DNA from: Rhizobium rosettiformans
GTDB taxonomy: Bacteria; Pseudomonadota; Alphaproteobacteria; Rhizobiales; Rhizobiaceae
Assembly: GCF_016806065.1 (NCBI RefSeq)
Contig: NZ_CP032405.1
Coordinates: 496,001 to 560,000, forward strand
Length of the DNA stretch: 64,000 nt
Reading direction: 5' to 3'
Shown here: piece after piece, positions 3,105-19,273 of the stretch
Numbering within the stretch: the stretch's first letter is position 1
Layout: every line of letters starts with the position of its first letter
Notes under the pieces: generated by a model
Database searches by the model: none
What the model saw: the letters and a program-made list of their open reading frames with translations, nothing else
Told to the model about the DNA's origin: nothing
Translations under genes and position numbers: made by a program

Positions 3105-4424
3105 ATGGCTAGGATCAGCGTATTTGGGATCGGTTATGTCGGCGTCGTCGCCGCGGCATGCCTGGCAAAGGACGGCCATGAAGTGGTCGCGGTGGATATA
3201 GATCCTGCCAAGGTGGATACGATCAATCGCGGCAAGACCCCCATTGTCGAAAAGGGCCTTGAACCGCTGATCGAGATGACGGTGGCCAATGGCAGCCTCC
3301 GGGCCACGCTCGATATCGACGAGGCGATCGCCGCGACCGACCTCTCCTTTGTCTGCGTCGGCACACCGAGTGCGCCGGATGGTTCCGTCGGCCTGACCTA
3401 TGTCGTCAAGGCCTGCGAGGCGATTGCTGCTGCGATCGCACGCAAGAAGGCTTTCCATTCCGTTGTCGTTCGTTCGACCATCGTGCCCGGCACCATGGAC
3501 AAGGTCTGCATCCCCGCTCTGGAAGCCGCCTCCGGCCTGGTTGCTGGCAAGGATTTCGGGGTCGGCTACTACCCCGAGTTCCTGCGCGAAAGCACCGCCA
3601 TCGAAGACTACTACGATCCGGGCCTGATCGTGTTCGGTGCGATCGACGAAACGACCGACAAGATCCTGCACGAGATCAATGCCGGTCTGCCTTGCGTCTG
3701 CCACTCTGTGCCGCTCGCGACCGCCGAGATGATCAAGTATACCAGCAACTCCTGGCGCGCCGTGAAGGTCACCTTCGCCAACGAAATAGGCAACATCGCC
3801 AAGGCCTGCGGCGTCGATGGCCAGCAGGTCATGAAGATCCTGTGCTCGGATCTCAAGGTCAACATTTCCCCCTACTTCATGCGCCCGGGTTTTGCCTTTG
3901 GAGGCTCCTGCCTGCCCAAGGACGTGCGCGCGCTCCGCCATCTGGCAAAGGAAGCGCATGTCGAAAGCGCCCTCCTCGACGCAGTCCTCGAAGCCAACGA
4001 AGCCCAGATCGACCGCGCAGAGACCATGGTTTCCCAGATGGGCGGCCAGACGATCGGGATGGTCGGCATCAGCTTCAAGACGGGCACCGACGACCTGCGC
4101 GAGAGCCCGCTGGCGAGCCTCGCCTCCCGCCTGATCGCGAAGGGCTATGACCTGAAGATCTACGATCCCTTCGTCCAGCAGGCCTATGCCGAGGGCATGA
4201 GCGGGGCCGGTCGCGGCAACGACACTTCGATCGACCTGAAGAACCGGCTGGTCGGAGAACTCGACGACCTCATCGACTCCTCGGATGTCATCCTCGTCGG
4301 CAATCACTATGCCGAGGCGATGCAGGCTCTCGACCAGTCGAGCGATAAGGTGCCGATGGTCGACCTGTTGCGCATCCGGCCGGACATTCGCTCGTCCGGC
4401 ACCTACCAGGGCATCTGCTGGTAA
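3105..4424 (+). CDS. algD: GDP-mannose 6-dehydrogenase (AlgD-like)
   Basis: A 439-residue NAD-dependent nucleotide-sugar dehydrogenase, the expected length for AlgD (about 436). It oxidises GDP-mannose to GDP-mannuronate, the committed step of alginate synthesis. The N-terminal Rossmann motif GIGYVG is at residues 8-13. The catalytic cysteine is C269 in GGSCLPKD, and the C-terminal domain holds GISFKTGTDDLRESP. The related UDP-glucose dehydrogenases share these motifs; the GDP-mannose assignment rests on the operon, which also carries alg8, alg44, a GDP-mannose pyrophosphorylase and alg O-acetylation genes. It is the first gene of a tight operon; alg8 starts 12 bases after its stop. Confidence 0.88.
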   Translation: MARISVFGIGYVGVVAAACLAKDGHEVVAVDIDPAKVDTINRGKTPIVEKGLEPLIEMTVANGSLRATLDIDEAIAATDLSFVCVGTPSAPDGSVGLTYVVKACEAIAAAIARKKAFHSVVVRSTIVPGTMDKVCIPALEAASGLVAGKDFGVGYYPEFLRESTAIEDYYDPGLIVFGAIDETTDKILHEINAGLPCVCHSVPLATAEMIKYTSNSWRAVKVTFANEIGNIAKACGVDGQQVMKILCSDLKVNISPYFMRPGFAFGGSCLPKDVRALRHLAKEAHVESALLDAVLEANEAQIDRAETMVSQMGGQTIGMVGISFKTGTDDLRESPLASLASRLIAKGYDLKIYDPFVQQAYAEGMSGAGRGNDTSIDLKNRLVGELDDLIDSSDVILVGNHYAEAMQALDQSSDKVPMVDLLRIRPDIRSSGTYQGICW

Positions 4425-4435
4425 GGAGCGCCGAT

Positions 4436-5911
4436 ATGCTGGCCCACGTCATCTATCTCTTGTCCATGACGATCCTGGCGCTCAGCGTGCCGCACCCAAC
4501 CGTATCCGCAGTCTCCGGCACCCTGATCACCGTCGGACTGATTGGCGCCTGGCGTTATGCCTGGGCCGGGATCAACCTGGCGCGGGCCGCCTATTTCCTG
4601 AACTTCGCCTATCCTCGGCGGCGCCGTCAGGCCGCCGAGGCCTACAAAGCCCGGGGTCTGAAGGATCATGCCTACTTCCTGGTCACGACCTACAAGATCG
4701 CCCCTGAGATCTCGACCCGCGTCTATCGCTCGATCTTCGAGGCCGCCTTCAGGGCAACCGGCGGCGCGACCATTGTCGCTTCCATCGTCGATGAGGCAGA
4801 TGCGCGCCTCATCCGTCGGGTCATGGCATCGGTTGCCCTCCACCATCCCGGCCGCGAAGCGACCGTCGGCCTGAAGATCGACAAGATCGAGGGTACCGGC
4901 AAGCGTGACGCGCTCGCAACCGCGCTCCGCTCGATCGCAAGGCTCAATCCCGGCCGCAACGACATCGTCATCTTCGTCGACGGTGACAGCTGCGTGCCCC
5001 ATGATGTCGTTGACCGCAGCATTCCCTTCTTCACCGATCCGAGCATCGGTGCCGTCACCACCGACGAACTCAGCGACACCCAGGGCGGACGCCTCTTCCG
5101 CGACTGGTTCGACCTCCGCTTCTCGCAGCGCCACGTCATGATGTCGTCGATGTCTTTGGGCGGACGTGTGCTCACCCTTACCGGCCGCATGTCGATCTTT
5201 CGCGCAAGCCTTGCGACCGATCCCGGCTTCGTCGACCTCGTCCGCAACGATTTCATCGACCACTGGCGTCTCGGCCGTGTCCACTTCCTGACCGGTGACG
5301 ACAAGTCCACCTGGTTCTGGCTGCTGCAGCGCGGCTACAAGATGCTCTACCTGCCGGATCTCTGCACCCTGTCGATCGAGACCCAGCCCAAGGACGGCTT
5401 CTTCGAATCCGCCACGACGCTGATGACCCGCTGGTTCGGCAACATGCTGCGCACCAACGCTCGGGCGCTCGCCCTTCCCGCCTCGCGCATCGGCTATTTC
5501 ACCTGGTGGTCGATCCTCGATCAGGCGCTGTCGATCTGGACGACGTTGGCCGGCCCCGCGAGCATCCTCTTGGCCGCTTTCTTCGTCAGCCCCTGGATCC
5601 TGCCGATCTACATCGCCTGGGTCATGTTCACCCGCTACCTCTTTTGCACGGTCATCATGGCCTTCCGCGGCGAGAGCCTCCCGATCACCTACCCCTTCCT
5701 CCTGTATTTCAGCCAGGTCGGCGGCGCGATCGTCAAGAGCTTCATTCTCTTCCGCCTCGATCGCCAGAGATGGACCCGTCAGTCGGGCTCCGGCTCAAAC
5801 CGGACCATCCCACTTGGCCAGCGCTGGCGCGCCATGAGCTCCACCTACATGCACTGCCTTGCCCTCGGATGGCTCATCCTCGGCGTGGCCTATGTCGGCA
5901 ACATCATCTAA
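4436..5911 (+). CDS. alg8: Alginate-type polymerase, family 2 glycosyltransferase (Alg8-like)
   Basis: A 491-residue inner-membrane glycosyltransferase, close to the usual 494 of Alg8. It has two N-terminal membrane segments, a cytosolic GT2 domain with FVDGDSCVPHD (the acidic metal-binding motif, near residue 180) and a TRWFGNMLRTN stretch corresponding to the product-binding RW motif. Several C-terminal membrane helices include SPWILPIYIAWVMFTRYLF. In alginate producers it polymerises mannuronate from GDP-mannuronate together with Alg44 while moving the chain across the inner membrane. The gene lies between algD-like and alg44-like genes, as in Pseudomonas. Catalytic motifs look intact. Confidence 0.88.
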   Translation: MLAHVIYLLSMTILALSVPHPTVSAVSGTLITVGLIGAWRYAWAGINLARAAYFLNFAYPRRRRQAAEAYKARGLKDHAYFLVTTYKIAPEISTRVYRSIFEAAFRATGGATIVASIVDEADARLIRRVMASVALHHPGREATVGLKIDKIEGTGKRDALATALRSIARLNPGRNDIVIFVDGDSCVPHDVVDRSIPFFTDPSIGAVTTDELSDTQGGRLFRDWFDLRFSQRHVMMSSMSLGGRVLTLTGRMSIFRASLATDPGFVDLVRNDFIDHWRLGRVHFLTGDDKSTWFWLLQRGYKMLYLPDLCTLSIETQPKDGFFESATTLMTRWFGNMLRTNARALALPASRIGYFTWWSILDQALSIWTTLAGPASILLAAFFVSPWILPIYIAWVMFTRYLFCTVIMAFRGESLPITYPFLLYFSQVGGAIVKSFILFRLDRQRWTRQSGSGSNRTIPLGQRWRAMSSTYMHCLALGWLILGVAYVGNII

Positions 5912-5929
5912 CCCCGAAGGACCGTAACC

Positions 5930-7051
5930 ATGGATATCGAAACGAAGACCGTACGCGACACCGCTTCCACGGGCTACGCCGGACAGGCAGAAAGCTTCCC
6001 GATCCTGCTCGACACGGGCACCGAACACCCGAAGACCAACATCCCCTTCGTCACCGTGATCGACGGTCGCCAGTTCACCGGCCGCAGCCTTTCGCTCGTT
6101 TCGGCCACCGTCTCCGGCCTTGCCGGTCCGGAGCTTGAGGGCAAGGAGCGCATTGCCGTCCTGCGTTTCGATTTCGATGGCTACACGATTTCCCTGCAGG
6201 TCGATGTCCGCATCAGCCGCACCCATGCCGAGACCGGCGAAGTGCGCCTCGATTTCCTCGAGCCGACCGGCGAACATCTGCCAACCCTGCGCTACCTCCT
6301 GAACAGCTATATCGCGGGTGACATCACCTCGGTCGACGGCATCATCAGCCTGCGAGAGAGGGCCGCAGTCAGCGGCAGCAAGAAGCAGGCGGGTCAGGCG
6401 AGCATCGGCAACATCGTCGGTCGCGGCCTCAAGATGGCCGCAACCGTTGCCTTCAGCCTTGCCCTTGCCGGAATCGCCGCCAACCTCATCTACGAGCGCG
6501 TCTTCTCCAAGGAGGTGAAGCAGCTTGCGGTGCTGTCTGCCGGCGGCCAGCCCTTGCGCGCCATTGCAAGCGGCCAGATTTCCTATCTCGATCTCGGCGC
6601 GACCCGCGGCGAAGTGCTTTACACTCTGCAATCGGTCTCCGGCACGACGCTCAGCGTCAACATGCCCTGCGATTGCCGCATCCTGCCGACCCGCGCCGGT
6701 GAAGGCTCGACGGTCATGGCCGGCGACGCGATCGTCGAGGTTGTCGACGAAACGGCAACCCCGGTCGTGCAGGCCGTCGTTTCCGCCGAGCAGGCCAAGC
6801 AACTCGTCTCCGGTGACATCGCCGAACTGCGTTTCTCGGACGGCCAGGTCGCCTTCGGCAGCCTCGCACAGAATGTCGAAGCCCTGACGGCAGTTGGCAA
6901 CGAAGGCGAGATGCGTGCCTTGATCGAGCCGAATACCGAGCTCGGCAGCGAAGCCGTCGGCTCCCCCGTCTCCGTCCGCATCATCAGCCAGCGCATCTTC
7001 ACGCTCCGCCAGAAGCTTGGCCAGTGGTTCAGCGAAGGAGCGGCAAGCTGA
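5930..7051 (+). CDS. alg44: Alg44-like co-polymerase (PilZ domain plus periplasmic HlyD-like domain)
   Basis: A 373-residue protein (Pseudomonas Alg44 has 389). The N-terminal cytosolic part aligns by eye with the PilZ domain, including the following LRYLLNSYIAGDITS segment that matches the end of that domain. A single membrane helix is at about residues 165-185, then a periplasmic barrel-sandwich, HlyD/MFP-like domain. In Pseudomonas Alg44 binds cyclic di-GMP and activates Alg8. Here the c-di-GMP signature is eroded: where RxxxR is expected the sequence reads TEHPK, and the D-x-S-x-x-G position reads SATVSG. Control by c-di-GMP is therefore doubtful. It follows alg8 by 18 bases. Confidence 0.82.
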   Translation: MDIETKTVRDTASTGYAGQAESFPILLDTGTEHPKTNIPFVTVIDGRQFTGRSLSLVSATVSGLAGPELEGKERIAVLRFDFDGYTISLQVDVRISRTHAETGEVRLDFLEPTGEHLPTLRYLLNSYIAGDITSVDGIISLRERAAVSGSKKQAGQASIGNIVGRGLKMAATVAFSLALAGIAANLIYERVFSKEVKQLAVLSAGGQPLRAIASGQISYLDLGATRGEVLYTLQSVSGTTLSVNMPCDCRILPTRAGEGSTVMAGDAIVEVVDETATPVVQAVVSAEQAKQLVSGDIAELRFSDGQVAFGSLAQNVEALTAVGNEGEMRALIEPNTELGSEAVGSPVSVRIISQRIFTLRQKLGQWFSEGAAS

Positions 7052-7110
7052 GTAGCCCGTCCAGGCAGACTATCCCGCGCAATCACTCCAACGGATTCAC
7101 AGGAGCAGCC

Positions 7111-8526
7111 ATGCAAGACGTTCATCCCCTTATCCTCTGCGGAGGAATCGGCACGCGCCTCTGGCCTCTGTCGCGCACGGAACATCCCAAGCAGTTCCAG
7201 CGCATCGACGGCAATTCGGAGACCACCTTCTTCCACGCAACCGTGGAACGCCATCGCGCGCCGGGCTTCGCTGACCCGATCGTTGCCGTCAGCAGCGCCC
7301 ATGTCGCAACCGTGCTACGCCAGCTGAGCGACCTCAAGTGCCCGGCCCGCGTTCTCGCCGAGCCGATCTCGCGCAACACCGGTCCGGCCGTGCTCGCAGC
7401 CGCCCTGACACTTGCCAAGACCGATCCGGCATCGCTGATCTGCGTCATCCCCTCCGACCACATCGTCAAGGGAGACCTGCCGGCCAACGTGCTCGCCGCT
7501 CGCAGGGCCGCGGAACAGGGCCACATCGTCCTCTTCGGCGTTCCGCCGGAATACCCGGAGACCGGCTATGGCTACATCGTCGACGGCGGCGCCCTCGAGG
7601 ATCTCACCTGCGCCCGCAAGGTGTCGAGCTTCATCGAAAAGCCGCCGGTGGAAGTCGCAACGGCCCTCATCGACGCCGGCGGCGCTTACTGGGCCTCGGG
7701 CTTGAGCCTCTTCAGAGCCGACGTCCTGATCGAAGAGTTCAAGCGCCTCGATCCAACGACCTTCGAGGCCGTGAAGAACGCGCTCGATCATGGCTTCGAG
7801 ACCGAGCACGCATTCTATCTCAATGCCGAGGCACTGCAGCCGGCCGCCAATCTGCCAACCGAGTCCATCGTCTTCGAACATTCGCCCCGCACCGTGATTG
7901 CTCCCCTGCTCGTGGCATGGAGCGATGTCGGGGCCTGGAATGCCCTGCACCACATCGCCGAGAAAGACGATGACGGCAACGTCCTGAGCGGTGACGTCAT
8001 CAGCATCGACACTCGCAACTCCTATGTGCGCGCATCGAGCAAGCTGGTTGCCGTTGTCGGCATGGACGATGTGGTCGTGGTCGACACCGACGATGCCCTG
8101 CTCATCACGACGCGGGATCAGGCCCAGCAGGTCAAGCAGATCGTCAAGAAGCTTGAGAGCATCAAGCGCCGCGAACTCGCCCAGCACATGCGCAACCAGA
8201 TGGCCTGGGGTGAGGTCCGCCGTGTCCAATCAGGCCCGGGCTACGAGCTGCGAATGATGACGCTGCGCCCCGGCACCATGCTGCCGATCGCAGAAGATGC
8301 CTCGTCACACCGCATGGTGACGGTGACGACAGGATCCGGGCTTTTGAAGACCGGTGCCGTCACACGGCCGCTGCGCATGGGTGACAATTTCGAGGTGCCA
8401 GCCGGCGAGGCGGCGTCGATCTATTGCGGCCCGGAAACCGAAATGCAGTTGGTCGAAGTCGTCTGCGAAGTCGCTGTCGCCGCATCCGTCGATGCGGTGG
8501 CCACCCTGCAACTCGTGCACAGCTGA
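7111..8526 (+). CDS. algA: Mannose-1-phosphate guanylyltransferase (AlgA-like; isomerase half degenerate)
   Basis: A 471-residue protein with the layout of type II PMI-GMP enzymes (AlgA/ManC). The nucleotidyltransferase motif LCGGIGTRLWPLSR with PKQF is at the N-terminus, and FIEKPP lies near residue 175. This half makes GDP-mannose from mannose 1-phosphate and GTP. The C-terminal cupin, which in AlgA converts fructose 6-phosphate to mannose 6-phosphate, lacks the canonical metal-binding QxHxHRxEHW motif; the corresponding stretch reads AEDASSHRM. I infer GMP activity only. The start at 7111 is fixed by AGGAG at 7100-7104 and by the conserved N-terminus; a longer frame from 7024 overlaps alg44. 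Confidence 0.85.
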   Translation: MQDVHPLILCGGIGTRLWPLSRTEHPKQFQRIDGNSETTFFHATVERHRAPGFADPIVAVSSAHVATVLRQLSDLKCPARVLAEPISRNTGPAVLAAALTLAKTDPASLICVIPSDHIVKGDLPANVLAARRAAEQGHIVLFGVPPEYPETGYGYIVDGGALEDLTCARKVSSFIEKPPVEVATALIDAGGAYWASGLSLFRADVLIEEFKRLDPTTFEAVKNALDHGFETEHAFYLNAEALQPAANLPTESIVFEHSPRTVIAPLLVAWSDVGAWNALHHIAEKDDDGNVLSGDVISIDTRNSYVRASSKLVAVVGMDDVVVVDTDDALLITTRDQAQQVKQIVKKLESIKRRELAQHMRNQMAWGEVRRVQSGPGYELRMMTLRPGTMLPIAEDASSHRMVTVTTGSGLLKTGAVTRPLRMGDNFEVPAGEAASIYCGPETEMQLVEVVCEVAVAASVDAVATLQLVHS

Positions 8527-8529
8527 GGA

Positions 8530-10044
8530 ATGGCGATGCGCAAGGGGCTCCCTCTTCTTCTGACACTCTTGATGACGTCGACCGCTCCCGGCCTGCGCGC
8601 CGAGAGCTTCGGCCACGCTGACGTGGACGGACTGACCCGGACAGTTTCGGAGATCAGAGGACAGCTTCGCGACCCCGCCTCCCGAAAGGACGACTTGCGC
8701 GCGCTCCTCTCCGGTCGCTTGGCCGAGGTTCGACAGGACGGCGCTGAAACGCCCCTCGCCCTCGACCGCCTCGCGACCGCCGGGAAGCTGCATACGGTGC
8801 CCATCGACTTCATGCTGGCCCAGCTGCGCTTGCAGACGGCAAGGCATTTCAATGTCGAGATCGAAAAGGCGCTGGCCAACCGCGCGGCACCGGCGCTCTT
8901 CATCCGCGGCGGCTCGATGACGCTCGACCAGTTGCTGGCCGAAGCAGCAAACAGTCATCCCGGCGCTTTGGAGCAGAAGGGAGAGAAAGTCGTCTCCCAT
9001 TGGCCGATCGTCATTTGGTCCGATTCCGCGCTGGTGATTGCCCCCGGGCAGTCGCTCGAGCTGTCGACGGAGGATGGTGCCTTTATCCTGAATTCCGGGC
9101 TTCTGACCGTGGACGGCGGCGAACTCTCCGCTTCGGACGGCACCAACCCGGGTCTCAACGCCTTCCGTCCCTTCGTGGCGACTGCGATGACCGGCGCCGT
9201 GCAGGCCCGGCGAGCCCATTTCAAAAACCTCGGCTTTGGCGGTTCCGGCGCAACCAGCGGCCTCTCCGTGCTCGGCGCCGCCCTCTTCCCCTCCAAGATT
9301 GCCTCCTATCTGACGGACAGCAGCTTCGAGAACATGTCGGGCATCAGCCTCGAAAACACCCATCGGGTGGTCGTTTCGGACAACCACTTTTCCGGCGGAA
9401 CAGGCCCGGCCATCGCATTGAAAGGCGTCACCGGGGCACAAATCCGGGACAACGTGATCACCGGCACCACCGAGGCCCAGGCGATCGATGTGCAGAACAC
9501 CAGTTCTGCGATCGACGTTACCGGCAACATCCTGATCGGCAATCGCGGCAGCGGCATCTTCGTCGCCAACGATGCGCGCGACATTGCGATCACCGGCAAT
9601 CTTCTGTCGGGCAATGGACGCGGCGGTGTCTCCGTCGTTCGAAGCGCCTGCGTGACGATCGCCGACAACATCGTGCTGTCGAACAGCCAGGTCGGGATCA
9701 AGCTGCGCGCCAGCCACGCGCTGACCCTGTCGCGCAATGATCTCGTCGCCAATGCCGGCGCGGGTGTCTCGATCATCGACCAGGATGAGAACGCCCGCGT
9801 CGTCGTCGACGGCAATGTCTTTACTGGCAACAAGTCCGGCATTCATGGCGGCGCAGCGAGCGAAGTGGCGCTGACGGCCAATGATTTTGGCGGCCAGTCG
9901 CCGATCCTGCTCGACGGCGAATTCGCCCCCTATGTGCCGCATCTCCTGCGGGCAGCCGCCGGCCCCGATGCGGACAGTCGCGCCCTCACCATTCACGCCA
10001 ACACGTCATCCGCCGATCCGGTGGACTGCAAGACCGGGAGCTGA
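8530..10044 (+). CDS. algG: AlgG-like periplasmic right-handed beta-helix protein
   Basis: A 504-residue secreted protein with a signal peptide ending around residue 24 (GLRA). From about residue 200 it has many short repeats of the parallel beta-helix type (for example NVITG, NILIGN, NLLSGN, NIVLSN, NDLVAN, NVFTGN). Length, position and the CASH-type repeats point to the AlgG mannuronan C5-epimerase family, which converts mannuronate to guluronate in the chain and protects it from AlgL. The catalytic DPHD tetrad is not present anywhere in the protein. It may serve only as a structural part of the export scaffold, or act on another sugar. It starts 3 bases after algA. Confidence 0.75.
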   Translation: MAMRKGLPLLLTLLMTSTAPGLRAESFGHADVDGLTRTVSEIRGQLRDPASRKDDLRALLSGRLAEVRQDGAETPLALDRLATAGKLHTVPIDFMLAQLRLQTARHFNVEIEKALANRAAPALFIRGGSMTLDQLLAEAANSHPGALEQKGEKVVSHWPIVIWSDSALVIAPGQSLELSTEDGAFILNSGLLTVDGGELSASDGTNPGLNAFRPFVATAMTGAVQARRAHFKNLGFGGSGATSGLSVLGAALFPSKIASYLTDSSFENMSGISLENTHRVVVSDNHFSGGTGPAIALKGVTGAQIRDNVITGTTEAQAIDVQNTSSAIDVTGNILIGNRGSGIFVANDARDIAITGNLLSGNGRGGVSVVRSACVTIADNIVLSNSQVGIKLRASHALTLSRNDLVANAGAGVSIIDQDENARVVVDGNVFTGNKSGIHGGAASEVALTANDFGGQSPILLDGEFAPYVPHLLRAAAGPDADSRALTIHANTSSADPVDCKTGS

Positions 10045-10046
10045 CA

Positions 10047-11495
10047 ATGGTTTTCTCGTCAGAGACTTTCCTGTTTCTCTTTTTGCCACTGTTCCTGGCC
10101 GCCTATTACCTGACCCCGGACCGGTTCAAGTCCTGGACCATTCTGATCGGGTCCTACCTCTTTTACTGCTGGTGGCGACCGGACTTCCTCTTGCTCTTCG
10201 TCGGCGTGACGGCCTGGGCCTATGGCTGTGGCCTGATGATCGAGCGGTGGGAAGGCCAGGCCAAGGCGAAGATCCCCCTCGTTCTCGGTGTGGTGGGCTG
10301 CCTTTCGGTTCTGGGCGTCTTCAAATACCTGAACTTTTTCGTCGACAGCTTCGCCGCCCTGCTCGGCACGACGCCTGATGAACTCGGTGTTCACTGGCGC
10401 CTGATCCTGCCCATCGGCATTTCCTTCTACGTCTTCCAGGCCGTCGGTTATGTCATCGACGTCTACCGCAAGGACACGCCGGCAACCCGCAACTTCGTCG
10501 ACTTTGCCGCCTTCATTGCGCTCTTCCCCCAGTTGATCGCCGGCCCCATCCTGCGTTTCAAGGACCTGGCGGACCAGTTCCACTCCCGCACCCATAGTCT
10601 CGCTCTCTTTTCGACCGGCCTCGGTGTCTTCACGATCGGCCTAGCGAAGAAGGTCCTCCTTGCCGACTCGATCGCCCCGGTGGCGGACGCCGCCTTCTCG
10701 TCTGCCAACGTCACCTTCGTCGAGGGCTGGCTCGGCGCCGCCGCCTACACGCTGCAGCTTTATTTCGACTTCTCCGGCTATTCCGACATGGCCATCGGCC
10801 TTGGCCTGATGATGGGCTTCAAGTTCATCCGCAACTTCGACACGCCCTATGTCAGCGCCTCGATCACCGAGTTCTGGCAGCGCTGGCACATCAGCCTCTC
10901 GACCTGGCTGCGCGACTATCTCTACATCCCGCTCGGCGGCAATCGCTTAGGCCCGCTGCGCACCTACCTGAACCTCTTCCTGGTCATGCTGCTCGGCGGC
11001 CTCTGGCACGGCGCCGCCTGGACCTTCGTCCTCTGGGGGGCCTGGCACGGCGGCTGGTTGGCAGTCGAGCGTTACACGGGATACGCCCGGGCCGGGCTCA
11101 ACAAAGCCTTCACCGTTCCGGCAACCCTCCTGCTCGTCGTCATCGGCTGGGTCATGTTCCGCGCCGCAAGCGTTGGCGAAGCCTTCTCGGTCTATGCCGG
11201 CATGCTCGGACTAAACGGCATGGCGCCGAGCCTGGAATTCCTGGCAAGCGTCAACCAGGAGCACCTCGTCTTCATCATGATCGCCATCGTGGCCGTGGTG
11301 ATGGAGCCTCGCTTCAAGCACCTGACCGATCCGGACCGCGTGCCGCTTATCGGGACACCGCAGGTGGCGGCCGATGGCACGGTGATTGCAACGTCGTCGA
11401 TCGCCTATCCGCTCGCAATGACCGCTCTCCTGGCGGTGACGATCGCACGCCTCGCCGAGCAGTCGGCCTCACCATTCCTCTATTTCCAGTTCTGA
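10047..11495 (+). CDS. algI: Membrane-bound O-acyltransferase (AlgI-like)
   Basis: A 482-residue MBOAT-family integral membrane protein with about ten hydrophobic helices. The signature GGLWHGAAWTFVLWGAWHG near residue 315-333 contains the invariant histidine of the family. AlgI carries acetyl groups across the inner membrane for transfer to alginate in the periplasm by AlgJ and AlgX. The neighbours algJ, algX and algF are all present, so the full O-acetylation set is encoded. Length matches the family (about 480-520). The catalytic residues look intact, in contrast to several other genes in this operon. Confidence 0.9.
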   Translation: MVFSSETFLFLFLPLFLAAYYLTPDRFKSWTILIGSYLFYCWWRPDFLLLFVGVTAWAYGCGLMIERWEGQAKAKIPLVLGVVGCLSVLGVFKYLNFFVDSFAALLGTTPDELGVHWRLILPIGISFYVFQAVGYVIDVYRKDTPATRNFVDFAAFIALFPQLIAGPILRFKDLADQFHSRTHSLALFSTGLGVFTIGLAKKVLLADSIAPVADAAFSSANVTFVEGWLGAAAYTLQLYFDFSGYSDMAIGLGLMMGFKFIRNFDTPYVSASITEFWQRWHISLSTWLRDYLYIPLGGNRLGPLRTYLNLFLVMLLGGLWHGAAWTFVLWGAWHGGWLAVERYTGYARAGLNKAFTVPATLLLVVIGWVMFRAASVGEAFSVYAGMLGLNGMAPSLEFLASVNQEHLVFIMIAIVAVVMEPRFKHLTDPDRVPLIGTPQVAADGTVIATSSIAYPLAMTALLAVTIARLAEQSASPFLYFQF

Positions 11496-11508
11496 CAGGA
11501 GCAAGACC

Positions 11509-12636
11509 ATGCCAAGTCTGCGCCAGTACACAGCGACACTGCTTCTGCCCTCCGCCTTCTTCGGCTACGCGCTCTATGCGAATTCGGCCCTGCTGACGAA
11601 TGCGGCCTCCCCGGCAGCCCAGGCTTCGGAGGCGAGGAACCTCTCGCTTTCCTACGTCATGGACGGCGAGGCGACACGCGATCTCGATACGCTCTACAAG
11701 AATGAACTTCCCCATCGCGCAGCCTCTGTCGGTCTGTTCGGCAACGCGCGCTACGCGCTTCTCGGAGCGGGCCGAAAGGGCGTCGTCGTCGGTGACGACG
11801 GATGGTTCTTCACCGCAGAAGAATTCAAGACCGTCTCGCCCAGCGACATTGACGACGCCGTCCAGCGGATCGTGGAAGTCAAGCGAGAGCTTGAAGCCCG
11901 AGGCATCCAGTTGGTGCTCGCACCGCTGCCGGCAAAGTCCGACCTTTATGCCGAAGACGTGCCCTCCCTCGTCCGCAGCGCCGCCATGGCTGACGCCTAT
12001 CGCGACTTTTCGACTGCTCTTCAGAAACAGGGGATCATCGTCGCGGACACCCGCGCCACGATGCTGACGGCAAAACCATTCGGCGACGTATTCCTGAAGT
12101 CGGACACGCATTGGTCGCCGGCCGGCGCCAATGCCGCAGCAGAGGCCGTCCAGTCAAGCCTTCAGCTGAGCGGCATAGATCTTGCCCCGCAGGATCTGAC
12201 CGCGCAGTGGCAGACCCCGGTGACCCTGTGGGGAGATCTGACCAAGTTCGTCACCTCTCCAGACTATGCACCGACGGTCGGCCTGGCGGAGGAAAGCGTG
12301 CCGATCTACCGGACGCGGGTCAGTGAGGCGGCAAGCGGCGCCGACATCTTCGGCGACGATTCCTCCGTCCCGGTCATGCTCGTCGGCACCAGCTACAGCG
12401 CCAACGAGAACTGGTCATTCGCCGACTTCCTCCGCCAATCGCTGCAAGCCGATGTCGCGAACGTGGCGAAGGAAGGTCTCGGACCCGGCGTACCAATGAT
12501 GGACCTGCTTGCCGGTTCCACGCTCGACGAGACCGCCCCGACCGTCGTCGTCTGGGAGTTCCCGGTCCGCTATCTCGGCACCAAGACGCTCTGGCAGCGA
12601 GACGGTGAGACCAAGACGGAGGGCGGCAATGTCTGA
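11509..12636 (+). CDS. algJ: Periplasmic O-acetyltransferase component (AlgJ-like SGNH fold)
   Basis: A 375-residue protein with an N-terminal signal anchor (about residues 7-24). It belongs to the AlgX/AlgJ SGNH-hydrolase-like family. DTHWSPAGA near residue 200 carries the Asp and His of the triad, and MLVGTSYSA near residue 292 carries the serine. AlgJ takes acetyl groups from AlgI and passes them towards alginate. The ribosome site GACAGGAGC lies just before the ATG. Its stop overlaps the next start (ATGTCTGA), indicating translational coupling to the Sel1-type gene. AlgX-like function is the alternative, but a second, larger family member downstream fits AlgX better. Confidence 0.82.
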   Translation: MPSLRQYTATLLLPSAFFGYALYANSALLTNAASPAAQASEARNLSLSYVMDGEATRDLDTLYKNELPHRAASVGLFGNARYALLGAGRKGVVVGDDGWFFTAEEFKTVSPSDIDDAVQRIVEVKRELEARGIQLVLAPLPAKSDLYAEDVPSLVRSAAMADAYRDFSTALQKQGIIVADTRATMLTAKPFGDVFLKSDTHWSPAGANAAAEAVQSSLQLSGIDLAPQDLTAQWQTPVTLWGDLTKFVTSPDYAPTVGLAEESVPIYRTRVSEAASGADIFGDDSSVPVMLVGTSYSANENWSFADFLRQSLQADVANVAKEGLGPGVPMMDLLAGSTLDETAPTVVVWEFPVRYLGTKTLWQRDGETKTEGGNV

Positions 12637-13408
12637 TCGTCTCGTCCGCCTGCTCTGCTCGGCCCTTATGGGATTGCCTCTGATGGCGGCCTCGCCCGCC
12701 CATGCGGTCAAGCCCCTCTTTCCACGCAACCCGCCCGAAGCCGCCGAACCTGCCAAACCGGTGAAGCGCAAGACGATGGGGCCTGCCTCGCATCTGCCGC
12801 TCGCCTTGCAGGAGGCGCGAAAGCGGCTGCTGGCCGGCAAGCGGGTTTCCTATCGGGAGCTTCAGGCGCTCGCTGATGCCAAGGACGGGATCGGCGCCTT
12901 CAAGCTGGCCGAGCGGATCCAGAAACAGGGAGACCCGAAGCTCGCGACCGACGCGCTGCACTACTTCGCCATCGCCGCCTACCATGATCGCGGCTACGCG
13001 GTGCGGCACATGATGGACATCCTCGGCAACGACAGCCTGGAGCTCGCGCCTTCCCATCTTGAAAGCGCGGAAGCAGCCCTTCGGCGGGAGGCACGCAAAG
13101 GAAACGACCAGGCGGTTGACGGTCTCATCCGGCTCTACAGCGAGGGCCGGCGGTTCGGCGACAAGCGCGACGAACTGGAATCCCTGCTCGCCTCCGGCAA
13201 GGGCAATAAAAGCGGCGACACGGCCTTCAAACTCGCCGTGCTTCTCCTCTCCGATCGCGACCGCACGCCTGAAAAGACCGAGCAAGCCAGCCGATTTCTG
13301 ACGATCGCCAAGGAGAACGGCAGCATCGGGATGAAGGCGGCGGCCAGCAACCTTCTGGCCCAGCTTGAGACGACGTCCAGTGAAACAAACATGGAGGTTA
13401 TGCCATGA
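12629..13408 (+). CDS. Secreted Sel1/TPR-like repeat protein of the exopolysaccharide operon
   Basis: A 259-residue protein with a signal peptide (MSDRLVRLLCSALMGLPLMA, cleavage near AHA at about residue 28). The mature part is helical with SLR/TPR-like units such as YRELQALADAKDGIGAFKLAERI and ALHYFAIAAYHDRGYAVRHM. The start at 12629 overlaps the algJ stop by 8 bases; its own stop overlaps algX by 4. Such repeats are scaffolds for protein-protein contacts, as AlgK is in Pseudomonas. It has no counterpart in the Pseudomonas operon that I recognise. I infer a role in assembling the periplasmic export/acetylation complex. Confidence 0.65.
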   Translation: MSDRLVRLLCSALMGLPLMAASPAHAVKPLFPRNPPEAAEPAKPVKRKTMGPASHLPLALQEARKRLLAGKRVSYRELQALADAKDGIGAFKLAERIQKQGDPKLATDALHYFAIAAYHDRGYAVRHMMDILGNDSLELAPSHLESAEAALRREARKGNDQAVDGLIRLYSEGRRFGDKRDELESLLASGKGNKSGDTAFKLAVLLLSDRDRTPEKTEQASRFLTIAKENGSIGMKAAASNLLAQLETTSSETNMEVMP

Positions 13409-14775
13409 CCCGCGTTCGCAAGACACGCATACTCGCCGGCACCGCACTTGCGGCCGTCATCGTGGCGTCCGGCCATCACGCCCGCGCCGAAATGCCGGAA
13501 GGCGATGCCGCCTCCAGCTACGGATGCCGCAGCCTGGAGGAAATCGCCGAGCTCCAGATGATCGAAGGCCAGGATGGAATGTTCTTCCGCATCCTCGCCG
13601 ACCTGCGCCTGCAGCACGCTTTCACCGATCAGACGGTCGATCATCTTGCCGCCATGGCGAAAGCTCTGGAGAAGAATGGCACGACCCTGATCTATGTGCC
13701 GCTTCCCACCAAGTCGCAGGTTCTTCCGGAGCTCGTGCCGGAGCGCGCCTCCCTCTATGGCTTCGATGCCGGGATCGCCACGGAAATCTACGACGACGTC
13801 GTTCGCCGCCTGAACGACAAGGGCGTCGCTGCCGTCGACATCGCCACGCCGATGCGAAAGAACAATCGCAATAGTTTCGGCGAGTATTCCTTCTTCCAGG
13901 CAGACTTCCACTGGACGGCCCACGGCGCAGACGTCGCAGCCAAGGCGATCGGCGACCGGCTGAAGGCATTGCCGGCCTATGCTGACGTGACCCCGGTCCG
14001 CTTCGACATGCGGGAAGTGCCACCGCCGGAAGAATTCTCGAGCATGCGCGAAATGCTGCAGAAGCACTGCATCTCGCATGTGCCGACCGTGACGGCCCAC
14101 ACCTACGAGGCTGTGCGCGTCGAGGATGACGCAGCCGAGTCAGGCGCCATGGACATCTTCGGCAGCGGCGATGAGACCGCCATTGCCCTGATCGGCACCA
14201 GTTACTCCGACAAGCCGATCAGCAATTTCTCGGGCTATCTGGAGCACTGGAGCAGCATCCCGGTCGAAAACTACTCGATCTCGGGCGGCAACCAGTTCGG
14301 TTCGATCCTCTCCTACATCACCTCCCGCGAGTTCCAGGAGCGCCGTCCTCGTTTCCTGATCTGGGAAAACCCGATCTACAACAATCTCGGCCAGTATGGT
14401 GCAGCCCCCTGGGCGGAAATCGTCGCCGCATCGCTCGGCGAATGCAGCCCCGCCATTCCCGCCAATGCCAGCGGCAACAACGCGGTCGAAGCCGATCTTT
14501 CGACGATGAAGCTGAGCCAAGGCGACGTCATCCTTGCCGATATCGGCAGTGACGTCAGCCGCAAGGCCACCTTCACCCTGACCGGCGCCGACGGCACCGT
14601 GCGCACCCGCTCGATCGAACGCGGTGACCGCCTGCGCTCCACCGGCCGCTATTTCTTTTCGCTCGGCGGCTTCCCCGAAGGTTCGATCGAGAAAGTGGCC
14701 GTCAGCTTCGACGCCCCGATCGACGACACCACCACCCTATCCATCTGCAAGACCAAAACTGGAGAACAGTCATGA
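13405..14775 (+). CDS. algX: Alginate O-acetyltransferase (AlgX-like)
   Basis: A 456-residue secreted protein (P. aeruginosa AlgX has 474). The signal peptide ends near residue 30 (HARA). The SGNH-like domain has DFHWTAHGAD near residue 170 (catalytic Asp and His) and ALIGTSYSD near 265 (catalytic Ser). A C-terminal beta-rich, carbohydrate-binding-type domain follows from about residue 345. AlgX is the terminal O-acetyltransferase that acetylates mannuronate in the periplasm. The active-site residues appear intact. ATGA overlap with the upstream gene and a 4-base overlap with algF indicate coupled translation. Confidence 0.85.
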   Translation: MTRVRKTRILAGTALAAVIVASGHHARAEMPEGDAASSYGCRSLEEIAELQMIEGQDGMFFRILADLRLQHAFTDQTVDHLAAMAKALEKNGTTLIYVPLPTKSQVLPELVPERASLYGFDAGIATEIYDDVVRRLNDKGVAAVDIATPMRKNNRNSFGEYSFFQADFHWTAHGADVAAKAIGDRLKALPAYADVTPVRFDMREVPPPEEFSSMREMLQKHCISHVPTVTAHTYEAVRVEDDAAESGAMDIFGSGDETAIALIGTSYSDKPISNFSGYLEHWSSIPVENYSISGGNQFGSILSYITSREFQERRPRFLIWENPIYNNLGQYGAAPWAEIVAASLGECSPAIPANASGNNAVEADLSTMKLSQGDVILADIGSDVSRKATFTLTGADGTVRTRSIERGDRLRSTGRYFFSLGGFPEGSIEKVAVSFDAPIDDTTTLSICKTKTGEQS

Positions 14776-15407
14776 TGACCAAGGTCCCCACACGCTTCGC
14801 CCTCGCAACTTTTGCGGCCACCCTTGCCCTCTCGACTGCGGCTTTCGCCGACGACGGCGGGCTCTATGAAAAGCCGCTCGATCCCAACTCCGCCTTCGTC
14901 CGGGTGATTGCACCCGGTGCGACGACGGCATCCGTGCAGAACAGCGCCTTCAACCAGCTTGAAGAGGGGGTCTCGCCCTATGTGGCTGTCGCCCCCGGAG
15001 ACATTCCTGTCTCCTCCAGCTTCGGCGAAGGCAGCATCAAGGCGAGCGCCGGCAAGTTCTATTCCGTCGTCGTTACCAAGGCGGGTGCGACGACCGTCGT
15101 CGACGACATGACCAAGAATCCGTCCAAGGCGACGCTTTCGCTCTACAACCTCACCGAAAAGGCCGCGATCGATCTCTTCGTGCCCCAGGCAGGCGCAGAA
15201 GCCGTTTCGGATGTCGACAGCGGCGGCTCGAAGTCCGTGGCGCTCAGAGCACCGCTTGCCGTCGATCTGGTCGTTCGCGAAGGCGACAAGGATCTCGCCA
15301 AGCTCGACAAGGTCGAATTCAAGCGGCTCGCCGGTGTGACCATCGTAGTCACCGGCGAAGGCGATCAGGTCGACGCAGTCGCCGTTCCCAGCACCATTGC
15401 CCGATAA
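14772..15407 (+). CDS. algF: Periplasmic alginate O-acetylation protein (AlgF-like)
   Basis: A 211-residue secreted protein, the usual size of AlgF (about 216). The signal peptide ends after STAAFA near residue 26. The mature N-terminus DDGGLYEKPLDPNSAFVRV is typical of the family, followed by two beta-rich domains. AlgF is required for acetyl transfer together with AlgI, AlgJ and AlgX and probably acts as an adaptor between them. Its start overlaps the algX stop by 4 bases. Confidence 0.88.
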   Translation: MMTKVPTRFALATFAATLALSTAAFADDGGLYEKPLDPNSAFVRVIAPGATTASVQNSAFNQLEEGVSPYVAVAPGDIPVSSSFGEGSIKASAGKFYSVVVTKAGATTVVDDMTKNPSKATLSLYNLTEKAAIDLFVPQAGAEAVSDVDSGGSKSVALRAPLAVDLVVREGDKDLAKLDKVEFKRLAGVTIVVTGEGDQVDAVAVPSTIAR

Positions 15408-15433
15408 TTGAAGACAGGTTCCGGAGGTTTATC

Positions 15434-18181
15434 ATGACGATTGCAAGAATGGCGAAGTCGCTGCTGATGGCAGGCGTGATGACGATGGCCGCCGGAACCC
15501 CGGGGCGCTCGGCCGCCATCGACGTCCGGTTCGCACCGCCGGATGTCGAACTGCCGAAGCAGGCGGTCTGCGCACCGCGCGTCCGCGACGAAGACATGAT
15601 CGCCGAATGGACGGCTTGGGATCAGAAGGCCCTGCCCAAACGAGCGACCTTCGCGATCACCCGCGACATGAACCGCATGCGCGATCTCGATGCGCGCAGG
15701 TTCGAACCGATCATCACCCGCATCCAGGCGCTGATGCCGACGGTCAAGAAGAATTACGACGAAACAGACGCCCTGTTCGATCGTGTCAAACTGATGTTGG
15801 CCAAGGGCGAAGGCGACAAGGTGCGCGACGAGGGCCTAGTGCAAAAGCTCATCGACGCCGGCTCCCATCCGGCAGGCTCGCTCAACACAGTCGCCGACTA
15901 TCTGATCGAAGGCCGCGGCATCGCCCAGGACAAGCAGGCCGGTCTGAAGATGAAGGTCCAGTCGGCCTATGGCGGCAACGCCGATGCGATCCTCGATCTC
16001 GCCCGCATGACCGAAGAGGGTCAGATCGTGGACGGCTGGGACATTGAACCCGAACTTGCCGTCAACATGGCCTTCGGCTCGCTGGTCGGCGTTCTCGACG
16101 AAGGCATTTGCGACCGCATCAGCCGCGTGGCCCGCGAGTATGACGATGGCGAAGTGGTGGTGAAGGACCCGCAGCTGAGCATGGCCTGGTATCGTTTCGC
16201 CGCTGATCTCGGCGACACGGCCGCAGCCTGGGAAGTCGCCGAACTCAATCTGCTCAGCGAGAAGATCGTCAAGGACAACGATGTCCTTCTCAAATATCTG
16301 AAAAAGGCAGCCGACGGCGGCAACATGTCCGCGATCCTCGAGATGGGCCGCCTCTATGCCGAGGGCGCCCTCCTGCCGCGCGACAGAAAGAAGGCCTTCG
16401 ACTATTTCAAGCAGGCGGAAGCCGCCGGAAACCAGGCTGGCATCATCAAGCAGGCGCAACTGCTCGAACAGACCAAGGACCGGTCACCGGAAGATGCGGC
16501 TGCCTATGAAGACCTCCTGCGCCGGCTGATCGCCCGCAACGACCCGCCGCCATGGGCCTACACCCGCCTCGCGCGTGTCATCCAGGCGCGTGACGGCATC
16601 TGGAAATCGGCAGCGGAGGTCAAACCGCTCCTGGAAGAGGCCGTCAAGCGCGGCGACATCGAAGGGGGCATCGACCTGGCAGAGCTTCTCATGAGGGAAG
16701 ACCTGTCGCCCAAAACGATCGCCCGTTCGACCGACCTCTTGTCCGGCGCGATCCACATCAACGGCGAAATCAATGCGATTGCCAAGCTGCAGCGCGTCTA
16801 TCTCTGCATGGATCCGGCAGGCCCCGACATCGAGGCGTCCAAGTACTGGTCGAACATCGAGGCGGGCGCCGGCAACAAGACACTCAACCTGGCACCCGAA
16901 CAGATCGACAAGCTGCCGGAACTGAAGGATCCGATGGTTATTGCGGCTATCCAGACCCAGGCACTTTATGGGCGGGCCAGCGCGCTGGCTCTCTATCAGC
17001 GCTACCTGAAAGGGGCGGGCTATTCCGATCAGGTTCTCAAATTCTGGGCGGAGCGCGCGGAAGTTCGGCGCGGTGCCACCGTCGAAGCGGCACTCCTCGA
17101 GTTCAAGCAGAACCTGGAGAAAGGCCGCATCAACGATGCCAAGCGCAGCATCCAGATGACCGGCGAAGGCATGACCGTCGATGCCGGCCTGAGCTTTGCT
17201 CGCTTTCTCGTCAACAACTACGCGACCGATCCGGAAAGCGTCGCCCTTGCCAGGGAGATCCTGATGCCGCTCGCGGAGACCGGTTCGGGCCGGGCCGTCG
17301 GGCTGCTGAAGGACCTGGAGGGCTCCAACGTCGAGACCAGTTCCTCGCCACTCCAGCGTTTTGGTGACGTTATGCGCGGTCGCGGCGACATGTCGGCGCA
17401 ACTTCTGCTGGCTGAAAACGCGACCTCGGAAGAGGATCAGGCACGCCTGTATCACCAGGCGATCAGCACGCAGCGCTGCGACTACGACGACACGATGGCT
17501 CTGGCCGAGTTCTCCATCCGGCATCAGCGCCAGGATGCCGAGCGTTGGCTGTCGATCGCAAGCCACATTGCGGGTGACGACGCCTGGCGCAAGGTCAAGA
17601 TCGCCGACGTCTACATGGCGCTCAATCAGCCGAAGACCCGGGAACGGGCGCTTGAACTCTATCAGGAAGCGCGTCTCGGCGGCGAGCCGGCCGCCTTCTA
17701 TCGCCTCGTCAAATACTATGCCAACGACGCGACCGAGAGCTACGACCCCGAGAAGGCAAGCGACATCTTCGTGGATCTCGTGGACAGCTCGGACATCAAG
17801 GACGTGCCCGAAAAACTCCTCATGCTGGCCAATATGAAGCCGGATATCCGTCGTCAGGTATCGCAGCGCATCGACGTGCGCGGGCTCTATGAGGAGGCGG
17901 CCGAAAACGGCCAGCCGGTGGCCATGCGCGAAGTGGCAAAACTTCTGCGCAGCGATGCGAAGGACAGCAAGTCCATTCTCGCCGCCTTCAACTGGCTGAA
18001 GAAGGCGGCAGAGGCGGGCGATGCGGAGGCCATGTTCCTCCTGTCGCAATCCTACGCCTACGGGCTGGGCACGCGCCCGGCTCTCGACGACGCACAAGCC
18101 TGGATGGCACGCGCGGCGGAAGCCGGGCATCCCGCAGCCACCCAGGTCCTGAAGCTCAACAACGCAGGAACGGAGGGCTGA
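15434..18181 (+). CDS. algK: Large Sel1-repeat periplasmic protein (AlgK-like)
   Basis: A 915-residue secreted protein, about twice the length of Pseudomonas AlgK (475). It has a cleavable-type signal peptide without a lipobox, so it is probably not lipidated. The mature protein is made of Sel1/TPR-like repeats, for example LKKAADGGNMSAILEMGRLY, FDYFKQAEAAGNQAGIIKQA and the C-terminal LKKAAEAGDAEAMFLLSQSY with YGLGTRPALDDAQAW. AlgK is the periplasmic scaffold that links the polymerase to the outer-membrane porin AlgE. No algE follows here. The ribosome site GGAGG lies before the ATG. I infer a scaffold that spans the periplasm; the partner in the outer membrane is unknown. Confidence 0.75.
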   Translation: MTIARMAKSLLMAGVMTMAAGTPGRSAAIDVRFAPPDVELPKQAVCAPRVRDEDMIAEWTAWDQKALPKRATFAITRDMNRMRDLDARRFEPIITRIQALMPTVKKNYDETDALFDRVKLMLAKGEGDKVRDEGLVQKLIDAGSHPAGSLNTVADYLIEGRGIAQDKQAGLKMKVQSAYGGNADAILDLARMTEEGQIVDGWDIEPELAVNMAFGSLVGVLDEGICDRISRVAREYDDGEVVVKDPQLSMAWYRFAADLGDTAAAWEVAELNLLSEKIVKDNDVLLKYLKKAADGGNMSAILEMGRLYAEGALLPRDRKKAFDYFKQAEAAGNQAGIIKQAQLLEQTKDRSPEDAAAYEDLLRRLIARNDPPPWAYTRLARVIQARDGIWKSAAEVKPLLEEAVKRGDIEGGIDLAELLMREDLSPKTIARSTDLLSGAIHINGEINAIAKLQRVYLCMDPAGPDIEASKYWSNIEAGAGNKTLNLAPEQIDKLPELKDPMVIAAIQTQALYGRASALALYQRYLKGAGYSDQVLKFWAERAEVRRGATVEAALLEFKQNLEKGRINDAKRSIQMTGEGMTVDAGLSFARFLVNNYATDPESVALAREILMPLAETGSGRAVGLLKDLEGSNVETSSSPLQRFGDVMRGRGDMSAQLLLAENATSEEDQARLYHQAISTQRCDYDDTMALAEFSIRHQRQDAERWLSIASHIAGDDAWRKVKIADVYMALNQPKTRERALELYQEARLGGEPAAFYRLVKYYANDATESYDPEKASDIFVDLVDSSDIKDVPEKLLMLANMKPDIRRQVSQRIDVRGLYEEAAENGQPVAMREVAKLLRSDAKDSKSILAAFNWLKKAAEAGDAEAMFLLSQSYAYGLGTRPALDDAQAWMARAAEAGHPAATQVLKLNNAGTEG

Positions 18182-18184
18182 GCA

Positions 18185-19273
18185 TTGGCCGATCTCACCC
18201 ATTGGACACTGAACCGCCATATCGCAGCCTCGCTGCTCGCAATCACAGCCGCCATGGCAGCGGCGCCAGCGGCGCAGGCCGCAGACGAGACCTGCTTCAA
18301 GACGCCTACGCCGGTCATGAGTCTCGGCTTCGGCAGTCGCTACGAAGCGGATTCCAAAAATCGCTCCGACATCGATGAAGAGTCCGACGCGGCCGTGACC
18401 AAGGCTCTGAAGCCGATAGACCAGTTCATTCAAAATCTCGCCAAGGTCGTTTCGAAGGCCCAAACCGAGAAGGACATCGCGACAAGGCGCGCCTATCACC
18501 GCTGCGTCGTGGATTCTGTTTACGCCTGGGCGAAGGCGGATGCTCTCAACGACATGCGCACATTCAACGCCAAACTATCGGTACCAGCACGGATCGGCGG
18601 CCTCGCCATCCTCTTTGCCGAAAGCCGTGACCAGGTTCCGGGGCTTCACGACCGGGAACGCATCGTGGAGAAGTGGCTGCAGAAGCGCGCACAGGAGATC
18701 GTCTACTTCTTCGAAAACGAAGCGACCAAGGGGGCTGCCCGCAACAACCTGCGCGCCTGGGCCAGCATGGCTGTCGGCGAGGTCGGGGTGCTCAACCGGG
18801 ACCGAGGTCTCGTCGAATGGTCGATCCTCAGCAACAACACCATGATTACCAATGCGGCGACCGATGGCAGCCTGCCGCTGGAAATGAATCGCCAGCGTTA
18901 TGCCCTGCACTACCAATTGCACGCCATGACGCCGCTGGTCGCCTCCGTCGCAAGGCTCTGCGAGGCAGGATACGGCAAGGGCGGTGCAGATCTCGACAAA
19001 CTGCGGACCATGGCGCACTTCTCGGTCAAGGCCGTGAAGGACCCGAAGATCGTGCAGAAGATCAATGGCAAGAGCCAGACGGTGAAACCGGGGCTGAAGA
19101 ACAACCTCACGTCACTGGCTTGGCTGGAACCCTATGTGGCGCTCACCAACGATCTGGACATGGAGAAGGAATTCGCGTCGCTGAGACCGCTTTCAAATTC
19201 GAAGCTGGGCGGAAACCAGACCAATCTCTACGACGATCAAAGGATCAGTTGCACCATGACGGTACAGAACTGA
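18185..19273 (+). CDS. algL: AlgL-like alginate lyase family (PL5) protein, active site altered
   Basis: A 362-residue secreted protein with a signal peptide ending in AQAAD near residue 32. The fold family is suggested by RAYHRCVVDSVYAWA, NNLRAWASMAVGEVG and the MNRQRYALHYQLHAMTPLV block, which matches the Arg/Tyr-containing segment of polysaccharide lyase family 5. In PL5 enzymes the NNHSYW motif supplies the catalytic histidine; here it reads NNLRAW, so the His is Leu. The Arg and Tyr seven residues apart are kept. AlgL normally clears stray alginate from the periplasm. This copy may be inactive or act on a different polymer. It is the last gene of the operon. Confidence 0.75.
   Translation: MADLTHWTLNRHIAASLLAITAAMAAAPAAQAADETCFKTPTPVMSLGFGSRYEADSKNRSDIDEESDAAVTKALKPIDQFIQNLAKVVSKAQTEKDIATRRAYHRCVVDSVYAWAKADALNDMRTFNAKLSVPARIGGLAILFAESRDQVPGLHDRERIVEKWLQKRAQEIVYFFENEATKGAARNNLRAWASMAVGEVGVLNRDRGLVEWSILSNNTMITNAATDGSLPLEMNRQRYALHYQLHAMTPLVASVARLCEAGYGKGGADLDKLRTMAHFSVKAVKDPKIVQKINGKSQTVKPGLKNNLTSLAWLEPYVALTNDLDMEKEFASLRPLSNSKLGGNQTNLYDDQRISCTMTVQN

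Follow-up and report, generated by a model that had tools for sequence, protein, structure and literature searches.

An alginate-like operon of Rhizobium rosettiformans, conserved in Alphaproteobacteria, that may direct the synthesis of an acetylated polymannuronate without guluronate

A stretch of 64,000 nucleotides of Rhizobium rosettiformans (assembly GCF_016806065.1, contig NZ_CP032405.1, positions 496,001 to 560,000), here called the window and numbered from its first letter, carries an alginate-like operon of twelve collinear genes (3105–19273) adjoining a LuxR-type regulator gene (2143–2859), all on the + strand. All twelve reading frames are open. The operon is a conserved alphaproteobacterial variant of the synthase-dependent alginate system and is not decaying. 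From its gene content and from the residues kept and lost, we infer that it fairly probably makes an O-acetylated polymannuronate without guluronate, with no control by cyclic di-GMP (c-di-GMP) through Alg44 and with an exit other than AlgE. An earlier note on this stretch, made from the sequence letters, had listed a gene set from algD to algL running in one direction, and both its coordinates and its content hold. It had also proposed an acetylated, mannuronate-only polymer with a different exit, which is still the best reading.

Pfam and NCBIfam models back algD, the family 2 glycosyltransferase, the guanylyltransferase of algA, algI (MBOAT), algJ and algX (ALGX family), algF and algL. The GDP-mannose 6-dehydrogenase AlgD (3105–4424) has as its top match in the Protein Data Bank (PDB) the P. 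aeruginosa GDP-mannose dehydrogenase 1mfz, with 434 bits over residues 3–439, followed by a UDP-glucose dehydrogenase with 242 bits. The polymerase Alg8 (4436–5911), a family 2 glycosyltransferase by Pfam with conserved motifs, is 42% identical over 488 columns to the Alg8 of control cluster L130, whose AlgG contains the DPHD motif. The acetylation set consists of the MBOAT acetyl transporter AlgI (10047–11495; PF03062, 110 bits), the SGNH acetyltransferase AlgJ (11509–12636; PF16822, 243 bits), AlgX, an SGNH acetyltransferase with a C-terminal domain (13405–14775; PF16822, 159 bits; aligning with AlgX 4knc over 51–441), and AlgF (14772–15407; PF11182, 47.7 bits with a cut-off of 34.4). As had been read by eye before, the sites of AlgD, Alg8, AlgI, AlgJ and AlgX are intact: in the family alignment AlgD Cys269, Alg8 Asp182, Asp184, Asp288 and Asp289, AlgI His321, AlgJ Asp199, His201 and Ser295, and AlgX Asp167, His169 and Ser266, which we take to be the catalytic residues, are conserved at ≥95%. 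In one related locus, from a Roseivivax metagenome-assembled genome (L074), algI, algJ and algF are absent between neighbours that are present, which may reflect an operon without acetylation or a faulty assembly.

The algG-like gene (8530–10044) encodes a right-handed beta-helix in which alignment and profile place ALKG at the position of the Pseudomonas-type DPHD, in a stretch that is variable in the family profile. DPHD occurs in 0 of 75 AlgG sequences (74 loci and the window). Among 34 aligned sequences, Asp452 and two Cys are the only ionisable residues conserved at ≥75%, without any conserved His, Tyr, Arg or Lys, so that no residue stands out as another base or carboxylate partner. Cys 374 and Cys 500 are invariant and may form a disulfide. 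The window protein matches the NCBIfam AlgG model weakly (43 bits, the model's cut-off being 700 bits and all AlgG scores, those of the controls included, lying under it), and 32 of the 34 sequences match this model at E 0.001, so that the homology is sound. According to the available part of PMC4444821, AlgG-less mutants yield unsaturated oligomers and laboratory strains with a mutated AlgG yield mannuronan, and a structural AlgG in the window's operon would fit with these results.

AlgA (GDP-mannose pyrophosphorylase, 7114–8526, within a longer GTG-started frame from 7024) keeps its guanylyltransferase domain in 34 of 34 aligned members. Its isomerase cupin PF01050 reaches 17.3 bits in the window, under the cut-off of 23.6, whereas another ManC encoded in this genome reaches 166.2 bits. 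The metal pattern H.HR..H is found in 0 of 74 AlgA proteins, being a strict pattern which also misses the L130 AlgA (HRHRSEL) that Pfam accepts, and the shorter H.HR occurs in two of the 74, both from Cohaesibacter (HYHR). The isomerase domain is a degenerate cupin, not one that is uniformly gone. Since the genome has two intact PF01050 isomerase domains outside the operon, both with H.HR..H, the isomerase step is probably supplied in trans; a type I isomerase (PF20511) was not found in this genome. Contig C2 of the same genome (L138:8891–11948) also encodes a ManC that keeps the isomerase motif and, behind it, a gene resembling GDP-mannose dehydrogenase; the 19.9 kb covered contain no alg8 match, and another mannose-based polymer is possibly made.

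AlgL (18185–19273) is a PL5-like lyase that aligns with PL5 structures (E 1e-41) and is 24% identical to the AlgL of L130. The equivalents of Tyr256, Arg249 and Trp205 are present as Tyr243, Arg236 and Trp192, with Lys66 replaced by Arg52, His202 by Leu189, His257 by Gln244 and Tyr259 by His246. As described in the available text of PMC8829089, Tyr256 is the acid/base, Arg249 serves the carboxylate, Lys66 belongs to the lid and His202 stabilises the intermediate. Arg52 is invariant in 34 aligned AlgL, and Arg190, Trp192, Arg236, Tyr243, Gln244 and His246 are present in 76 of 76 AlgL loci. Position 189 is Leu in 73 of the 76 and His in the other three, which form one group of Agrobacterium rosae, A. 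rubi and a related isolate (L059, L062, L065). The earlier statement that AlgL has lost its catalytic His is thus right about the residue, but this His is not the acid/base, the Tyr is kept, and the reading of a simply dead enzyme is unsupported. In the same source, an H202A variant had no detectable in vitro activity yet resembled the complemented strain in vivo, and Y259F AlgL kept about 30% of its efficiency, so the His202 and Tyr259 changes alone are no proof of a dead AlgL (PMC8829089, in part). Judged from its residues, AlgL is probably a remodelled clearing enzyme that is active.

A remodelled AlgL might also belong to a related but different polymer, for which Alg8 would use another NDP-uronate or linkage and AlgL and AlgG would have changed accordingly. 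This is favoured by the coordinated and invariant way in which the AlgL site has changed (NNH to NNL with Arg190, together with Gln244 and His246) and by an AlgG that is merely 23% identical to the DPHD-bearing AlgG of L130. However, the AlgD match to GDP-mannose dehydrogenase is full-length and far above that to UDP-glucose dehydrogenases, a GDP-mannose pyrophosphorylase is encoded in the operon, and Alg8 keeps the 42% identity to that of the DPHD-containing cluster, which together make a different polymer unlikely.

Regarding export, the place of AlgK is occupied by a 915-aa Sel1/TPR solenoid (15434–18181; Pfam Sel1). Its structure model (pLDDT 86) consists of helices only, with no strand of ≥3 residues and no beta-barrel, and by sequence there is no lipobox near the N-terminus. 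The earlier description as a double-length AlgK-like scaffold stands as far as length and solenoid are concerned, but the match to AlgK (35 bits) lies far under that to generic Sel1 proteins (up to 183 bits). The small protein gene (12629–13408), present in 78 of the 79 loci described below, had been labelled an extra Sel1 protein, a label that falls away as no Pfam family matches at E≤0.1 in any of five proteins (the window and four relatives). As noted before, algE is missing: the AlgE family (PF13372) was not found in the R. rosettiformans genome, and it is absent in 34 of 38 other operon genomes, the four hits lying on contigs other than the operon's. It is also absent in 19 of 22 congeners with either of the two operon types described below (partly overlapping the 38). 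The same search does find AlgE beside the alg genes of two control genomes, G233 and G334. The 25 largest clusters found in the flanks include no other broadly conserved gene, nor do the flanks compared hold a conserved gene for an epimerase or porin, or an outer-membrane protein.

Ordinary alginate of mannuronate and guluronate would still result if an unlinked epimerase added the guluronate and an unlinked AlgE-like pore exported the chain. Azotobacter has secreted epimerases besides AlgG, according to the available part of PMC4444821, and the R. rosettiformans genome contains one weak PF12708 match. Yet with AlgE not found in this genome nor in 34 of the 38 others, and with neither an epimerase gene nor a porin gene conserved in the compared flanks, we regard this as quite unlikely. 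A polymer kept in the periplasm, e.g., as an osmotic or envelope polymer, appears very unlikely. It would agree with the lack of an outer-membrane protein in the operon or compared flanks and with an all-helical Sel1 protein without lipobox near its N-terminus, but free periplasmic alginate is harmful in Pseudomonas (available parts of PMC8829089 and PMC4444821), and a pore encoded beyond the flanks is equally possible.

The co-polymerase Alg44 (5930–7051) has no Pfam match at E 0.001; it is identified by its profile similarity to the PilZ domain of Pseudomonas Alg44 (E 0.0004), by a structure model and by its gene position. In the model, the PilZ fold is kept at residues 30–131. Both c-di-GMP motifs of PilZ are found in 0 of 69 Alg44 sequences, counting only hits in homologous proteins, as the pattern also matches unrelated frames (and the DPHD pattern two antisense frames). 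The periplasmic part contains a near-invariant P-C-D-C at residues 246–249 (window 6665–6676).

The adjoining LuxR-family regulator has a GerE helix-turn-helix (HTH) above the Pfam cut-off and a receiver-like N-terminus slightly under it, and its start is likely the internal ATG at 2215. In the alignment the HTH is conserved and the acidic residues of the receiver are not conserved in every lineage. A LuxR-type gene is present in 19 of 20 upstream regions, the Devosia sample being the one without. Between the regulator and algD lies a direct repeat, CCTGAC-N14-CCTGAC (2974–2999, + strand), a candidate for the operator. All six near relatives have this repeat with a spacing of N14 (N15 in L110), the first copy 128–131 and the second 107–111 bases before algD. 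In further lineages, of which 12 of 14 were scorable, one copy is found in eight and none in four.

For the distribution of the operon, loci were collected by an AlgX scan of named genomes, resulting in 79 loci that span Rhizobiaceae, Devosia, Roseibium, Cohaesibacter and many Rhodobacterales, so that the word 'rhizobial' of the earlier note is unsupported. Closest to the window, at 97% in AlgX, are Agrobacterium albertimagni AOL15 and Rhizobium sp. RU33A. The gene-order search which that note had proposed shows that 76 of the 79 alphaproteobacterial loci, across families and orders, have those of the genes that they contain on one strand and in the order of the window; all twelve genes are present in 68 loci and in order in 65 of these. 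Its four losses of signature residues (the DPHD tetrad of AlgG, the isomerase cupin of AlgA, the PilZ motif of Alg44 and the His of AlgL) are borne out by alignments and family-wide motif counts. Its word 'eroded' is not, as the whole clade shares the losses and purifying selection acts on each gene or domain that was compared with eight relatives, with ratios of non-synonymous to synonymous substitution rates (dN/dS) of 0.008–0.34. AlgG has the highest ratio of the operon in seven of the eight comparisons (0.10–0.34).

Within the genus of the window, this Alg8 type is found in at least 20 of 63 genomes, counted as Alg8 matches at ≥58% identity, which is a lower bound since one genome (G015) has the AlgX without an Alg8 match. 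Of 385 sampled genomes of the class, 11 have an AlgX match of any kind, and none besides that of the R. rosettiformans genome itself is close (best 134 bits, 28% identity); the few and distant matches indicate a patchy distribution. Salipiger sp. CCB-MM3 carries the entire operon on a plasmid in identical order, and in this record five of the twelve products are annotated as hypothetical and only one name mentions alginate. AlgL relatives are also plasmid-borne in Rhizobium, Loktanella, Salipiger, Tateyamaria and Jannaschia. An alginate operon degenerating toward loss would account for the signature residues lost in several proteins and for the patchy distribution, but it is hardly credible and largely contradicted by the low dN/dS in all eight comparisons, the twelve open frames of the window and the identical losses and order across families and orders.

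Control clusters show what such a search returns when the motifs are there. L130 (genome G233, Alphaproteobacteria) has related algD, alg8, alg44, algA, algG, algI, algJ, algX, algF and algL; unlike the window, it has DPHD, RQFVR/DLSSGG and NNHMYW, PF01050 with 121.9 bits (in an algA read from two overlapping frames) and an AlgE-family barrel. Its AlgG scores 325 bits on the NCBIfam model. At L130:13465–15435, a single open frame of 657 codons encodes both a Sel1 repeat and the AlgE-family barrel, resembling a fusion of AlgK and AlgE. G334 (L131) has AlgE beside its alg genes, and its Alg44 contains RQHVR and NISVGG; no AlgG or AlgL was found in its 20 kb stretch, and its AlgA cupin is degenerate by eye. 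A further locus, L129, stops at a contig end.

A second alg-like operon, called type B here, is present in nine of the 63 congener genomes, six of which also carry the window's type. The two are alike in Alg8 (47–51% identical), in the absence of AlgE (eight of the nine genomes) and in an AlgA without PF01050 at E≤1e-3 (both of the two scanned). They differ in that type B, in all three loci compared (L143, L144, L145), has an AlgG with DPHD and an Alg44 with RxxxR..DxSxxG. As absence of AlgE and loss of the AlgA isomerase are common to the two types, it is the missing epimerase and PilZ motifs that distinguish the window's type. The Pfam PilZ model scores above cut-off in L130 (29.9 bits), under it in L144 (20.0) and is absent in L143. 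AlgG of type B forms the end of a 1244–1319-codon open frame, several hundred residues preceding the AlgG part, and the two scanned reach 273 and 308 bits with NCBIfam. The type B operons of these congener genomes are covered by the loci L143/L146, L144/L147 and L145/L148. Placement by eye shows Asn-His retained at the His202 place in all six AlgL-like proteins of type B operons, and those of L147 and L148 already have a His at the 246 place. Since these two have both, His246 of AlgL may have arisen before His202 was lost.

In the pathway we propose, mannose-6-phosphate would come from isomerases encoded outside the operon, AlgA would lead to GDP-mannose and AlgD would oxidise this to GDP-mannuronate, which Alg8 and Alg44 would polymerise into the periplasm. 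The chain would be acetylated by AlgI, AlgJ, AlgX and AlgF, guided or shielded by the beta-helix of AlgG with its active site lost, and cleared by the remodelled AlgL when stray. Scaffolding of the complex would fall to the 915-aa Sel1 protein, perhaps aided by the small protein, and the polymer would leave via an outer-membrane pore from outside the operon that does not belong to the AlgE family. The LuxR-type regulator next to the operon would be in control, in place of c-di-GMP acting on Alg44.

Several points weigh against this proposal. AlgE absence and AlgA isomerase loss are not special to the window's operon type, and PF01050 is still detected at E≤1e-3 in 10 of 34 aligned AlgA members, Cohaesibacter keeping its HYHR. 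The lack of c-di-GMP control is deduced from motifs, and Alg44 may have another binding mode. The sugar could be another uronate if the specificity of Alg8 or AlgD has shifted. An unlinked epimerase could act: the weak PF12708 match (L128, C1:2691150–2691332) has 29.3 bits with neighbours in frame and is possibly a beta-helix epimerase or lyase. Finally, the export route is assumed, and its outer-membrane pore would lie outside the operon.

Downstream of the operon, the window contains an HlyD-family adaptor and an AcrB-family pump gene (22473–26692), and a related long frame is found downstream of the operon in four near relatives (L002, L004, L009, L018).

A wider statement can tentatively be made, about as apt to fail as to hold and perhaps slightly more so: an alphaproteobacterial clade would naturally make an acetylated guluronate-free mannuronan, uncoupled from c-di-GMP and AlgE, and some species would run alongside it a second operon with intact epimerase and c-di-GMP motifs, giving two uronans under two controls in one cell. 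As stated in the available part of a 2015 review, no mannuronan producer was then known from nature (PMC4444821). The operon points to dozens of candidate species for natural mannuronan, and the question becomes directly testable. It also offers a natural experiment on the catalytic versus structural parts of the alginate machine, as AlgG and the AlgA cupin are under purifying selection after motif loss, and it poses a concrete export problem, the known porin being missing. The operon type is not described among the literature matches listed, from a search that subscription journals mostly escaped.

According to Bundalovic-Torma et al. (2020; PMC7112194, as available), there are alginate operons without the outer-membrane transport loci algKE or without modification loci, and loss of export genes as such is therefore not new. 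The available text of that study does not go down to single residues and names no Alphaproteobacteria for alginate; its legend gives deep-sea bacteria. Compared to the alginate systems of Pseudomonas and Azotobacter, the window's operon has no AlgE, a Sel1 protein twice the length of AlgK, an extra small protein and an attached LuxR-type regulator, with AlgG lacking DPHD, AlgA the isomerase motif, Alg44 the c-di-GMP motifs and AlgL His202. Its gene order also differs from the Pseudomonas alg order. What it shares with these systems is the GDP-mannose dehydrogenase, Alg8, a PilZ-fold Alg44, a beta-helix AlgG, AlgI, AlgJ, AlgX and AlgF, and a PL5 AlgL.

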